Positions 20,358 to 27,376 of a DNA stretch of 31,589 nt are shown here, one piece after another. Where the stretch lies: positions 1-31,589 of IMG/VR virus record IMGVR_UViG_3300045946_000205; one strand, written 5' to 3'. Every line of letters begins with the position of its first letter. Within the stretch, counting starts at the first letter, position 1. A model generated the notes under the pieces. The model saw only the letters and a program-made list of their open reading frames with translations, did not search any database and had not been told where the DNA came from. A program made the translations under genes and the position numbers. The DNA comes from a virus.

Positions 20358-21023
20358 TCAGAGCAGGTGTTTCCAGGTGCGGCCATAGAGGATCGCTTCG
20401 ATGTTCGGCACACTGACGCCATAGCGCGCGGCTTGAGCTTTGACTGGCTCTCGCCTAAGGCGGATCTCCCGGACATCGGCCTCGGTGAGTTTCACGTGGG
20501 ACGCCCGCTCGCCACGCTGGTCCACGCGCGACCGCATCGGCCCGCCTGATTCAGGCCATGTTCCCCCGTTGTTTACATTGGAAATCGTCGCCTGCGAGAC
20601 GCCGTACCGCTCGGCAACAATGCGTTGCGGTACGCCCTTCGCCAGCTCGAGCCTAATCTGGCGCGCTTGCTCCGGAGTCAGCTTCGATGACCACCGCCGT
20701 ATCGCCTCGCGCGATGGCCCACGGCGGCGCTTCTTCGCCACCATGTCGAAGACGTTGTCCGCCTGCGTCCCGAGGAACAGGTGTGCAGGGTTGCAGCAGG
20801 GCGGGTTGTCGCAGTGATGCAAGACCGACATCCCCTCGGGGATCGGGCCGCGGGTCGTCTCCCACGCGACTCGATGCGCGTTGACTGCAAGGCCCGACTT
20901 TCCGCCACTGCCGATGTGGCCGTAGCCGTCCTTGGTCCGGCATCCGGTCCACTCCCAGCACGCGGCTGACCCGCCTTTCCTGACGCGGGACCAGAGCCTT
21001 TCAGCGATGGGACGACGAGACAT
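20358..21023 (-). CDS. HNH homing-type endonuclease with two HTH repeats
   Basis: Residues about 20-95 form an HNH domain: CWEWTG at 22, NAHRVAWE at 48, GPIPEGMSVLHHCDNPPCCN at 59, PAHLFLGTQADN at 79, with H69/H70, N78 and H81 as likely active residues and cysteines binding zinc. Residues 113-156 (KLTPEQARQIRLELAKGVPQ, RYGVSQATISNVNNGGTW) and 177-220 are two diverged copies of a helix-turn-helix that would bind DNA. This is a free-standing homing endonuclease layout. Its ATG (21023) follows GGAGGAC by about 6 bases and overlaps the resolvase gene by 23 bases, so it may have been inserted at the end of that gene. Confidence 0.9.
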   Translation of the reverse strand: MSRRPIAERLWSRVRKGGSAACWEWTGCRTKDGYGHIGSGGKSGLAVNAHRVAWETTRGPIPEGMSVLHHCDNPPCCNPAHLFLGTQADNVFDMVAKKRRRGPSREAIRRWSSKLTPEQARQIRLELAKGVPQRIVAERYGVSQATISNVNNGGTWPESGGPMRSRVDQRGERASHVKLTEADVREIRLRREPVKAQAARYGVSVPNIEAILYGRTWKHLL

Positions 21024-24344: not shown

Positions 24345-24754
24345 CAACCTAACGTTTCTCGTTGGTTGGCATGTTCCGACGGTGAGGACAACGAAAGAGA
24401 CCAGCGACCTTCCTTGGCCCCGAATGGTCCTTCGACGCGATCACCTGGCCAGTGCTGGAGGTCGCCGCGCGCGGTGCAGTTCGTGATGGCGCGGCGGACG
24501 GACGTCAGCGGGACGCGACGCTCGAAGAGCTTCTCCCAGACCTGGCTGGGCGTGAACCGCACGCCGGGCACGGCCGCGTCCTGCATTGCCCACCATGCGA
24601 GCAGCGTGGCCTCCTGACGCGCTGCGCGGCGCTCGCCGGCCTGGACCTCGTCCGCGGTCACGTGCGCGCGAGCGTGGAACGCCTGGAGCGCTTGGGCGCG
24701 GCGCGCCTTGGGGGCCGTGAAGTCGAGGCCGCCCTGGCGGGGATCGTGTCTCAC
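24344..24754 (-). CDS. Winged-helix-like phage protein
   Basis: This 136-residue protein has a basic, helical N-terminal half (KARRAQALQAFHARAHVTAD). The second half looks like a winged helix (VRFTPSQVWEKLFERRVPLT, SVRRAITNCTARGDLQHWPG). I recall similar uncharacterised phage proteins with the tPSqvw...P.tSvRRAi pattern. It would bind DNA, perhaps controlling early genes or helping replication. It begins at GTG with a GTGA overlap. Confidence 0.7.
   Translation of the reverse strand: MRHDPRQGGLDFTAPKARRAQALQAFHARAHVTADEVQAGERRAARQEATLLAWWAMQDAAVPGVRFTPSQVWEKLFERRVPLTSVRRAITNCTARGDLQHWPGDRVEGPFGAKEGRWSLSLSSPSEHANQRETLG
24345..24368 (-). promoter_or_regulatory. Hairpin covering the HTH gene start region
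   Basis: CAACC-T-AACG pairs with CGTTGGTTG around a TTTCT loop, giving 9 pairs with one bulged T. In the minus-strand RNA its 3-prime arm contains TTAGGTTG, the only Shine-Dalgarno-like bases for the ATG at 24344. A ribosome finishing the upstream gene would open it, so this would make the HTH gene depend on coupling. Confidence 0.4.
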
Positions 24755-24987
24755 GCCGTCGCGGCTCCATTGCGTCGAGGCTTCCTCGCCCCCGGGCAGT
24801 CTCGGGTCAGGAATCCGGCGACGATCGCGGCTTCCTCACGTTGCGGGTGGCCCTCGCCCCCGAACACGTCGTGACCCGATGGACGCTTGCAGCGTCTGCT
24901 TACGGGAGCCATACAGGTTGGGCACGGAACCTCGAGCCGCGGGTCGCGATGCCAGATCGTTCCGCAGAGCTGACAAGAGACGCTCAC
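24751..24987 (-). CDS. Small zinc-ribbon protein
   Basis: This 78-residue protein starts MSVSCQLCGTIWHRDPRLEV, then PCPTCMAPVSRRCKRPSGHD. It has CQLC and CPTC pairs, a third C (RRC) and a PSGHD...HPQRE segment. This is the pattern of small phage zinc-finger proteins (PCPxCxAxxxxxCxRPSGHx...HxxR). It probably binds nucleic acid. The GTG at 24987 lies 7 bases after GAGG. It is the first minus-strand gene after the rightward gene at 25031. Confidence 0.7.
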   Translation of the reverse strand: MSVSCQLCGTIWHRDPRLEVPCPTCMAPVSRRCKRPSGHDVFGGEGHPQREEAAIVAGFLTRDCPGARKPRRNGAATA

Positions 24988-25189: not shown

Positions 25190-27376
25190 TCAAGCCACAG
25201 CCTCCTCTTCGGTCTCCGGCTTGTTCGCGATGACGAGCGCCTCAGCCGCCTCGGGGCACACGCTGTTTCCGATGAGCCGGACCTTCGCCGCCTTCGTGCG
25301 CGCGGCGCTCAGGTCATAGAGATCGGCGAAGCGTCCGAACTGCGCGCGGAGCAGCTCGTGCGGTTCCAGCATTCGCATCCCTATGTCGACGACCTGGTAA
25401 TCGATCCCCTCGACCGTCACGAGGCCCAGGCGGTGCTTCGCGGTCAGCGTGCGCAGCGGGGCGCGCAGGCCCTGGCCCTTCCCTGCCGTGCCGTCGCTTC
25501 CGTAGAAGGCTGTGAGGAAGGCGCGGACTTCGCGCGTGTGGTCGGCTACGCCGTGCGGGTTGCTCGGAACGCCGTCGTCTGCGCTATCCCGAGCTGACGG
25601 GCGATGGCGGCGAAGGAAAGCCCCTGCGCTCGCAGCGCTTTGGCCGCCGGTGCGATCGCCGCCAGGATCGGCCTCGGCGTTGTCTTGGACAGCGGTCGGC
25701 CCAGCACCCTGTAGGCGTGCAGATGGTTCTCGCTGCGCGTCGCCGGCTCCAGATTCTCGGGATGGTTGTTCGTCCGCTTGCCGTCCTTGTGGTTGATGTC
25801 CATGCCGGACGGGATCGGCCCCTTGAGAACCGTCCACACCAGACGATGCGCGGCCAGCAGGAACGCGCGGGAGTTTATGTTGACTCGCACCATCAGGTAG
25901 CCGCGCTTGCTCAGAGTCTCGGCGCGCTTCGGTGCGTGCAGTCGGGTGGCGTTGAGATTCCGCAGCTTCCACACCGTCCCGTCCGGACGCACCTCGATCA
26001 CTCCCGTGTCGATCATCCGTTGAGCCGCTTCGAGAGCCGTCATCCGTCGCCTCCAGACTGGCCGTCACCACCGAGTGATGGTCTTTCGAGGTTATGGTGT
26101 GGAGCGACCCGCCCAGGTCCGCACCGACCATTCCGCCGAAATGACGCGCCAAGAAGGCGGATACGAGCGCATGCTTGCGGCCCTGCGCGACGATCGTGCC
26201 CAGCGGTTCGCCAAGGTCGAGCACACGAGCCGGCTGGTCAGGGCCGCGCCCGTGATGCGCCTTGCGCTCGCCGTAGCCGGCCTGTATGAGGGTCGGCGCG
26301 ACCAGCGCATGCCCGCGCTGCGTAGCCGTGACCGTTGAGAGCGGCAGGTCGAGCTGCTCCCCACGGGCCTCGCGCTTCCCGTGGTTCACCTTCACCAGGT
26401 GCGGGGCGACGATGTTGAAGCGGTTGTGCTGCGTCGTGACCACGCCGAGCGGTTCATCCACGCCTCGCGGAGCGTTCGAGTGCGTCATCTCGACCAGGGA
26501 GGGGGTCGCGATTGCGAATCCTCCTCCACCGCTGGAGCCGGTGATCGTAGGCAGTGGATCGGCAGCGGGCTGCGCGCCGTGGCCGCGGCGCTTCGTCACG
26601 CCATCGGGCGCGACCTCGCCGTGCGCCATGCGAACGACGAAGGGAGCGGGGCTGTCCAGGACGAAGCGGCGGATCCCCTGGGCGATCCGCCACAGCGTCT
26701 TCTCGGCGAGCGGCCGCTTCCGCTCGAAGATCGAGGGGCACGGGATCGACCAGTCGATGCACTCCGCCGCGGTGTGGACGTGCGCCAGGCCGGGCCCGTG
26801 AGTCGGCGCGGGCCAGCGGATCGGCTGACCGTCGCAACGCGCGACCATGAACAGGCGCCGTCGGCGTGTCGGCGCGCCATAGAGCGAGGCGTCGAGGACG
26901 CGGTAGTCCACGACGTAGCCCAGACCCTGGAGCGTCGAACACCAGCGTCGGAAGGTCTGGCCCATGCGGCTCTTGTCCGGCTTGCCGTCCTGGCGCAGCG
27001 GGCCCCAGCCGCGGAACTCGGTGACGTTCTCGAGGAAGATCACGCGCGGCCGCACCGCCTTCGCCCACCGCACGACGGCCCAGGCGAGCGAGCGGATGTT
27101 CTGGCTGCGTGGGACGTCTCCCTTCGCGACGCTGAAGTGAGTGCAGTCGGGTGACGCCCAGAGCACTGCGACCTCGCGGCCCTGGGTGGCCTCGCGGGGC
27201 TTGACCTCCCAGATGTCGGCGTCGAGGTGCTGGGTGTCCGGGTGGTTCGCCTTGTGGACCGCCAGGGCAATCGGGTCGTGGTTGATCGCGATGTCGACCG
27301 GCCGGCCCAGGGCCGCCTCGAGGCCGGCGCTCGCGCCGCCACCGCCGGCAAAGAGGTCGACGATGAGGCCGTTCAC
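25190..27376 (-). CDS. C5 cytosine-specific DNA methyltransferase with inserted segment
   Basis: The first 450 and last 115 residues form a C5 methyltransferase. Motif I is VDLFAGGGGASAGLEAAL at 6. The catalytic loop SPDCTHFS has C78 (PDC in place of the usual PCQ). Motif VI ENV is at 116-118, RRRRLFMVA follows later, and GNSVCPEAAEAL is near the end. These enzymes methylate cytosine using S-adenosylmethionine, usually to protect phage DNA from host restriction. Residues about 445-611 are hydrophilic, low-complexity Arg/Ser/Asp/Gly-rich sequence that overlaps a second gene in another frame. Without them the length (about 560) is usual for phage enzymes. It starts at GTG with a GTGA overlap. 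Confidence 0.93.
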   Translation of the reverse strand: MNGLIVDLFAGGGGASAGLEAALGRPVDIAINHDPIALAVHKANHPDTQHLDADIWEVKPREATQGREVAVLWASPDCTHFSVAKGDVPRSQNIRSLAWAVVRWAKAVRPRVIFLENVTEFRGWGPLRQDGKPDKSRMGQTFRRWCSTLQGLGYVVDYRVLDASLYGAPTRRRRLFMVARCDGQPIRWPAPTHGPGLAHVHTAAECIDWSIPCPSIFERKRPLAEKTLWRIAQGIRRFVLDSPAPFVVRMAHGEVAPDGVTKRRGHGAQPAADPLPTITGSSGGGGFAIATPSLVEMTHSNAPRGVDEPLGVVTTQHNRFNIVAPHLVKVNHGKREARGEQLDLPLSTVTATQRGHALVAPTLIQAGYGERKAHHGRGPDQPARVLDLGEPLGTIVAQGRKHALVSAFLARHFGGMVGADLGGSLHTITSKDHHSVVTASLEATDDGSRSGSTDDRHGSDRGASGRDGVEAAESQRHPTARTEARRDSEQARLPDGASQHKLPRVPAGRASSGVDGSQGADPVRHGHQPQGRQADEQPSRESGAGDAQREPSARLQGAGPTAVQDNAEADPGGDRTGGQSAASAGAFLRRHRPSARDSADDGVPSNPHGVADHTREVRAFLTAFYGSDGTAGKGQGLRAPLRTLTAKHRLGLVTVEGIDYQVVDIGMRMLEPHELLRAQFGRFADLYDLSAARTKAAKVRLIGNSVCPEAAEALVIANKPETEEEAVA
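25546..26043 (-). CDS. HNH endonuclease nested inside the methyltransferase gene
   Basis: This 165-residue protein is read in a different frame of the methyltransferase gene. The ribosome site GGAGG lies 6 bases before ATG 26043. HNH features are AHRLVW with H66, DINHKDGKRTNN with N84 and H85, and PENLEP at 96. A C-terminal helix-turn-helix (GLSFAAIARQLGIAQTTAFR) follows. The N-terminal segment reads GTVWKLRN and SKRGYLMVRVNINSRAF, a typical AP2-like or HNH lead-in. Most of its codons end in G or C. The host enzyme frame through the same DNA looks like filler. It is probably a homing endonuclease gene inserted without an intron or intein. Confidence 0.85.
   Translation of the reverse strand: MTALEAAQRMIDTGVIEVRPDGTVWKLRNLNATRLHAPKRAETLSKRGYLMVRVNINSRAFLLAAHRLVWTVLKGPIPSGMDINHKDGKRTNNHPENLEPATRSENHLHAYRVLGRPLSKTTPRPILAAIAPAAKALRAQGLSFAAIARQLGIAQTTAFRATRTA

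Follow-up and report, generated by a model that had tools for sequence, protein, structure and literature searches.

Can a gene that lies wholly inside another, in a shifted frame, leave its host gene in use, and how would it have come to be there? The question is raised by a viral stretch of 31,589 nucleotides, analyzed over its whole length and called the window here (IMGVR_UViG_3300045946_000205; a 31.6-kb virus record with a GC content of 0.69), which carries head, portal, terminase, and tail genes. The original prediction, made from the sequence alone, placed an HNH endonuclease gene out of frame within a methyltransferase gene, and the two reading frames are arranged as it described, both on the minus strand.

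A gene within the methylase gene and the module it replaces

The outer gene (25190..27376, minus strand; 728 aa, GTG start) runs without a stop across the nested gene. It is assigned as a C5-cytosine DNA methyltransferase by a Pfam match to PF00145 (E=4.5e-28, residues 5-184) and by the motifs DLFAGGGG, SPDC, ENV, RRR, and a C-terminal GNSV, all in invariant columns; it has full-length relatives (L002-L006). The part upstream of the nested gene (26054..27376, minus strand; residues 1-441), delimited by alignment to uninterrupted relatives, holds the SAM-binding and catalytic motifs and most of the recognition-region repeats, and its final residues are ..DHHSVVTASL. The downstream part (25190..25540, minus strand; residues 613-728, HTREVRAFL..GNSVCP..), recognized by tblastn and alignment to relatives, shares its reading frame with the upstream part, and its flank identity is that of a Myxococcus-type lineage. 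Both flanking parts are thus homologous to the enzyme, as had been claimed, with a match to PHROG 116 that spans residues 4-725. Judged by its intact catalytic and C-terminal motifs, the methylase with its insert is a candidate enzyme.

Long open reading frames abound in the window, both in alternative frames and on the opposite strand. Because this surplus follows from GC-rich codon usage, an open frame alone is no evidence of a gene. A small open reading frame at 24751-24987 (minus strand) has a weak match to a phage zinc finger (PF24623, E=1.2e-4), below the cut-off.

The nested gene (25546..26043, minus strand; 165 aa, ATG start) encodes an HNH homing-endonuclease-like protein with an HNH_3 domain (PF13392, E=1.1e-15, Pfam) and a C-terminal HTH; residues H66, N84, H85, N93, and N97 are conserved among HNH relatives. 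An AlphaFold model, predicted with rows from the annotated phage collection left out of the alignment, has a pLDDT of 91.9, and its best structural match is I-HmuI (PDB 1u3e; Foldseek E=1.6e-5, TM about 0.5, 22% identity). In its HNH_3 domain, its conserved His and Asn residues, and its C-terminal HTH, the predicted protein fits the I-HmuI type of homing endonuclease, whose activity it would share. The gene is shifted by one base, such that the first base of each HNH codon is the second base of a methylase codon, and it covers methylase codons 445-611, across which the methylase frame holds no stop, again as predicted. It also has the strong ribosome site of its own that had been noticed, a Shine-Dalgarno GGAGG (26050..26054, minus strand) 6 nt before the ATG and overlapping methylase codons Leu441-Ala443; the RNA around the HNH start has no unusual structure. 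Elsewhere in the window (20358-21023, minus strand) lies a second, free-standing HNH endonuclease gene (PHROG 1872/59), with about 26% identity to the nested one over 118 residues.

Alignment to uninterrupted methylases mapped the exact borders of the inserted segment (25541..26053, minus strand; methylase residues 442-612) and revealed what it replaced. The segment is 513 nt long and nearly all HNH coding, with 10 nt ahead of the ATG and 5 nt past the stop; the HNH frame does start and stop at the segment borders. At this site, between ..DHHSLxxATL and HIAEVRAFL, uninterrupted relatives have a module of ~24 residues, VKLRG..PxPTxTAGG, of the type VKLRGECSGSDVAAPLPTITGQGN in L002, L004, L006, Corallococcus L084, Myxococcus L085, and phage Mx4 (L082). 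Since the relatives carry this module where the window carries the HNH gene, we conclude that the gene replaced a recognition-region module and was not a pure insertion. The segment had been described as extra, which holds insofar as it is missing from uninserted relatives, but it is not purely so, because its 171 codons occupy the site of a 24-codon module (net +147 codons). The relatives with an empty site, in which the segment is absent and the VKLRG module present, reach 76% identity in the core methylase sequence. None of the aligned relatives that lack the HNH gene has the 166-residue methylase segment; they have VKLRG-type repeat modules there. Long tblastn matches across the insert in L007, L010, and other relatives turned out to be extra repeat modules and not the same segment. 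The uninserted methylase of L005 (1944-3503) has only a short stretch at the site, with most of the module absent, which suggests that this stretch can disappear without an insertion.

In the AlphaFold model of the methylase, the insert has pLDDT values of 24-36 and no secondary structure. This would fit the low-complexity loop that had been predicted, but weakly, as the entire recognition region is also poorly predicted. The replaced module may contribute to target recognition and, because it is possibly needed for that function, the window methylase could be altered or dead.

A second copy and the open methylase frame

A search for the enzyme with and without the insert recovered, besides the empty-site relatives, one more inserted copy. 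In the Gemmatimonadetes contig L083, a methylase of about 670 aa has an HNH gene nested at the same site and in the same phase, with borders as in the window (left TL|E, right HTREV), a methylase frame that is open throughout, and GGAG 7 nt before the HNH ATG. The two HNH proteins are 59% identical, and their host methylases are 63% identical over the first 260 residues.

In the 241 methylase loci whose N-terminal domain was detected, no nested copy beyond these two was found. An HMM scan of the open reading frames at methylase loci gave L083 as its sole nested find and recovered the hidden HNH of ShiLan, considered below, as a positive control. Searches of viral and genome collections with a single HNH protein did not find close relatives. 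With an HNH alignment as query, viral contigs yielded only HNH genes that were free-standing or distant, and this methylase flanked none of them; 395 genomes from the phylum of L083 and 195 from that of Corallococcus, also searched by alignment, gave no further nested copy. The junction DNA pattern HTREV..AFL hit a single locus, L322, which is unrelated and matched by chance. HNH genes or HNH-like open reading frames lie close upstream of methylase genes in mycobacteriophages as well as in several relatives; such frames near methylases occur in L297 (2324-2986), L305 (2564-2989), L320 (1876-2232), and L321 (4433-4789). Pseudomonas phage Lana (L317, 1456-4599) has a related methylase of over 1000 residues.

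How much the open methylase frame says about the methylase depends on how often such openness arises by chance. When the HNH protein was held fixed and recoded synonymously, the window methylase frame stayed open in 12-17% of trials, or in 4.5% under the codon usage of the HNH gene itself, and among 498-nt segments taken from other genes of the window, 17% are open in the equivalent frame. Because open frames are this frequent by chance in GC-rich DNA, openness in a single sequence is weak evidence, and we rejected it as proof by itself.

These rates bear on the strongest of the alternatives, that the HNH insertion broke the methylase, and that the frame is open by an accident of high GC content and yields no useful through-protein. 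The loss of a conserved module would agree with such a history, as would the evolution of the shared bases. At fourfold-degenerate sites the window and L083 HNH genes are identical at 20/63 positions, against 35% expected, with third positions otherwise saturated; the methylase frame therefore shows no amino-acid constraint. Against this alternative stands the second copy. In L083 the chance of an open methylase frame is 2.4-12%, and in both copies together the risk codons, those in which a third-position T would create a stop in the methylase frame, have T in 0/51 cases versus 30/217 elsewhere (Fisher p=0.0012). The avoidance is seen in L083 alone (p=0.020), a copy not chosen for its openness; for the window alone, where p=0.058, it leaves more room for an accident. 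Moreover, free-standing HNH genes with a GC content of 0.60 or more have 2-6 stops in that frame in 10/10 cases, and none of the 10 is open. An 18-nt difference outside the HNH coding region preserves the phase. The C-terminal motifs downstream of the insert are intact, and the terminal methylase branch, at 0.27, does not exceed the 0.29 of uninserted L002. Thus, the openness exceeds chance only when the second copy and the stop-avoidance test are added. The statistics are small because only two copies are known, and the copies are not fully independent, since 16 risk codons are homologous between them, 11 with the same third base; support from stop avoidance is accordingly moderate. On balance, we consider a broken methylase unlikely. 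Selection seems to exclude stops from the methylase frame while the residues of the loop drift.

Ancestry of the two copies and the proposed mechanism

A methylase tree was built from the cores, with the insert and the repeat region removed. The window methylase belongs to a clade of 14 rows, mostly of Myxococcus type (100/100), the L083 methylase groups with other viral contigs in a clade of 5 rows (99/98), and a single clade of the two is rejected (p-AU 5.7e-54); the host methylases are not sisters. In each copy the flanks directly upstream and downstream of the insert match its own lineage, and just downstream of the insert L083 ranks only 69th of 92 relatives in closeness to the window. 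The fewest changes that place the segment on the tree are 2.

A second alternative is a single ancient insertion that was passed down together with the methylase and removed on many occasions when empty alleles recombined with it; active homing would then play little or no part. It would account for the similar divergence of the two HNH proteins and their hosts, and recombination with an empty allele would bring the module back exactly. However, it demands many separate losses in both clades where two gains suffice, and the flanks of the two copies show no shared closeness; we regard it as rather improbable. The segment has a patchy distribution, of which two gains are the simplest account, read from a tree that by itself cannot separate gain from loss. 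The transfers would not be recent, as the HNH identity is not above that of the host methylases. A third alternative places the HNH gene within a group I or II intron, or within an intein, that would be spliced out. It might be expected because introns often carry HNH genes and because the closest solved structure, I-HmuI, is that of a homing endonuclease, but we consider it very improbable: the Rfam search, group I and II introns included, gave no match below E=0.6 and thus no credible flanking intron structure, the segment is nearly all HNH coding, its methylase-frame translation has no Pfam match, and, the module having been replaced, precise excision would not restore the methylase gene.

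The explanation that we favor is homing without an intron or intein. From what is directly established, namely the anatomy of the locus, its borders, the empty sites, the second copy in a non-sister methylase, and the avoidance of stops, we think it quite probable that an I-HmuI-type homing gene replaced a recognition-region module of the methylase out of frame, and that it is translated, cuts, and homes beside a working methylase. The original prediction had such a gene spread by landing in a tolerant loop; the missing intron signal and the recurrence in a non-sister methylase agree with that spread, but the gene replaced a module and did not land beside one.

The mechanism that we propose is as follows. 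In a phage C5 methylase, a selfish HNH gene would have taken the place of a repeat module of the target-recognition region, and it would be read in a shifted frame. Translation of the HNH protein would most likely begin on the methylase mRNA at the Shine-Dalgarno site of the HNH gene itself, and the protein would cut those methylase alleles that still have the module, into which repair would then copy the HNH gene. Ribosomes translating the methylase would pass through these bases in the methylase frame, and the enzyme would gain a net ~147 residues that probably form an unstructured loop. The sequence of this loop appears free to drift, with selection retaining its stop-free state; stops may be kept out of the methylase frame because the C-terminal methylase motifs are then still made. 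We extend this idea only tentatively, and with some doubt, to out-of-frame homing genes in phage methylases as a general, repeatedly evolved lifestyle, in which host-frame selection would only remove stops and the shared bases would encode both a drifting, unstructured loop and a working endonuclease.

Relation to known systems

The arrangement is rare, and its general kind has been published once before, from mycobacteriophages. In the ShiLan domain, an HNH lies out of frame in a mycobacteriophage methylase whose frame stays open, with no intron or intein, and its carriers are not a clade (PMC11855218, Genes 2025; PMC9957025, 2023). The window, and likewise L083, has an HNH frame wholly inside a phage methylase, shifted, without stops in the host frame; the window also resembles ShiLan in that an intron or intein signature is absent, that the borders lie close to where the HNH frame begins and ends, and that the methylase tree does not unite the carriers in a single clade. 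The components differ. The ShiLan host, gp65, is a TDPPYG-type methylase, whereas that of the window is a C5 methylase; the ShiLan HNH has 195 aa, zinc fingers, the other shifted frame, a GTG start, and no detectable Shine-Dalgarno site, whereas the window protein is I-HmuI-like with HNH and HTH elements and its gene has GGAGG and ATG. The ShiLan HNH is reported to have inserted between two codons, whereas the window HNH replaced a 24-residue module. The two HNH proteins can be aligned over only 51 residues (31% identity), and the window element is not a member of the ShiLan domain family, defined by a homologous zinc-finger HNH at the gp65 site. Given another methylase, frame, and HNH, we take it as a separate instance of the same arrangement.

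I-HmuI is intron-encoded in Bacillus phage SPO1; the window HNH shares its fold but is not in a recognizable intron, and it falls outside the class of group I intron homing endonucleases, with no intron RNA structure in Rfam and almost no non-coding sequence in the segment. In Salmonella phage epsilon34, gp31/gp31A (L169, 2279-2971) is likewise an HNH annotated within another phage gene, but there the HNH is fused in frame and has an internal start, and does not overlap its host in a shifted frame. Pacc40 gp60 is a phage methylase with an alternate-frame endonuclease-like open reading frame of 160 aa; in other phages, Pacc40-like free-standing genes sit upstream of the methylase (PMC11855218). 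By its description, gp60 differs from the window in being a helicase-methylase fusion with a less certain HNH assignment.

What is new here is the endonuclease, the host enzyme, the phase of the frame, the site, and the Shine-Dalgarno sequence, and by alignment the new site is seen in two distantly related methylases. The case is distinct from ShiLan and Pacc40: a homing gene is concealed in a shifted frame in phage methylases of other host lineages. Its visible ribosome site suggests a route by which the hidden protein is produced, a point left open by the ShiLan authors, and its two diverged copies permit a test that suggests that the host frame is kept stop-free despite amino-acid drift. 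If this is true, gene callers that forbid large overlaps would overlook nucleases of this sort and record strange methylase "inserts" in their place.
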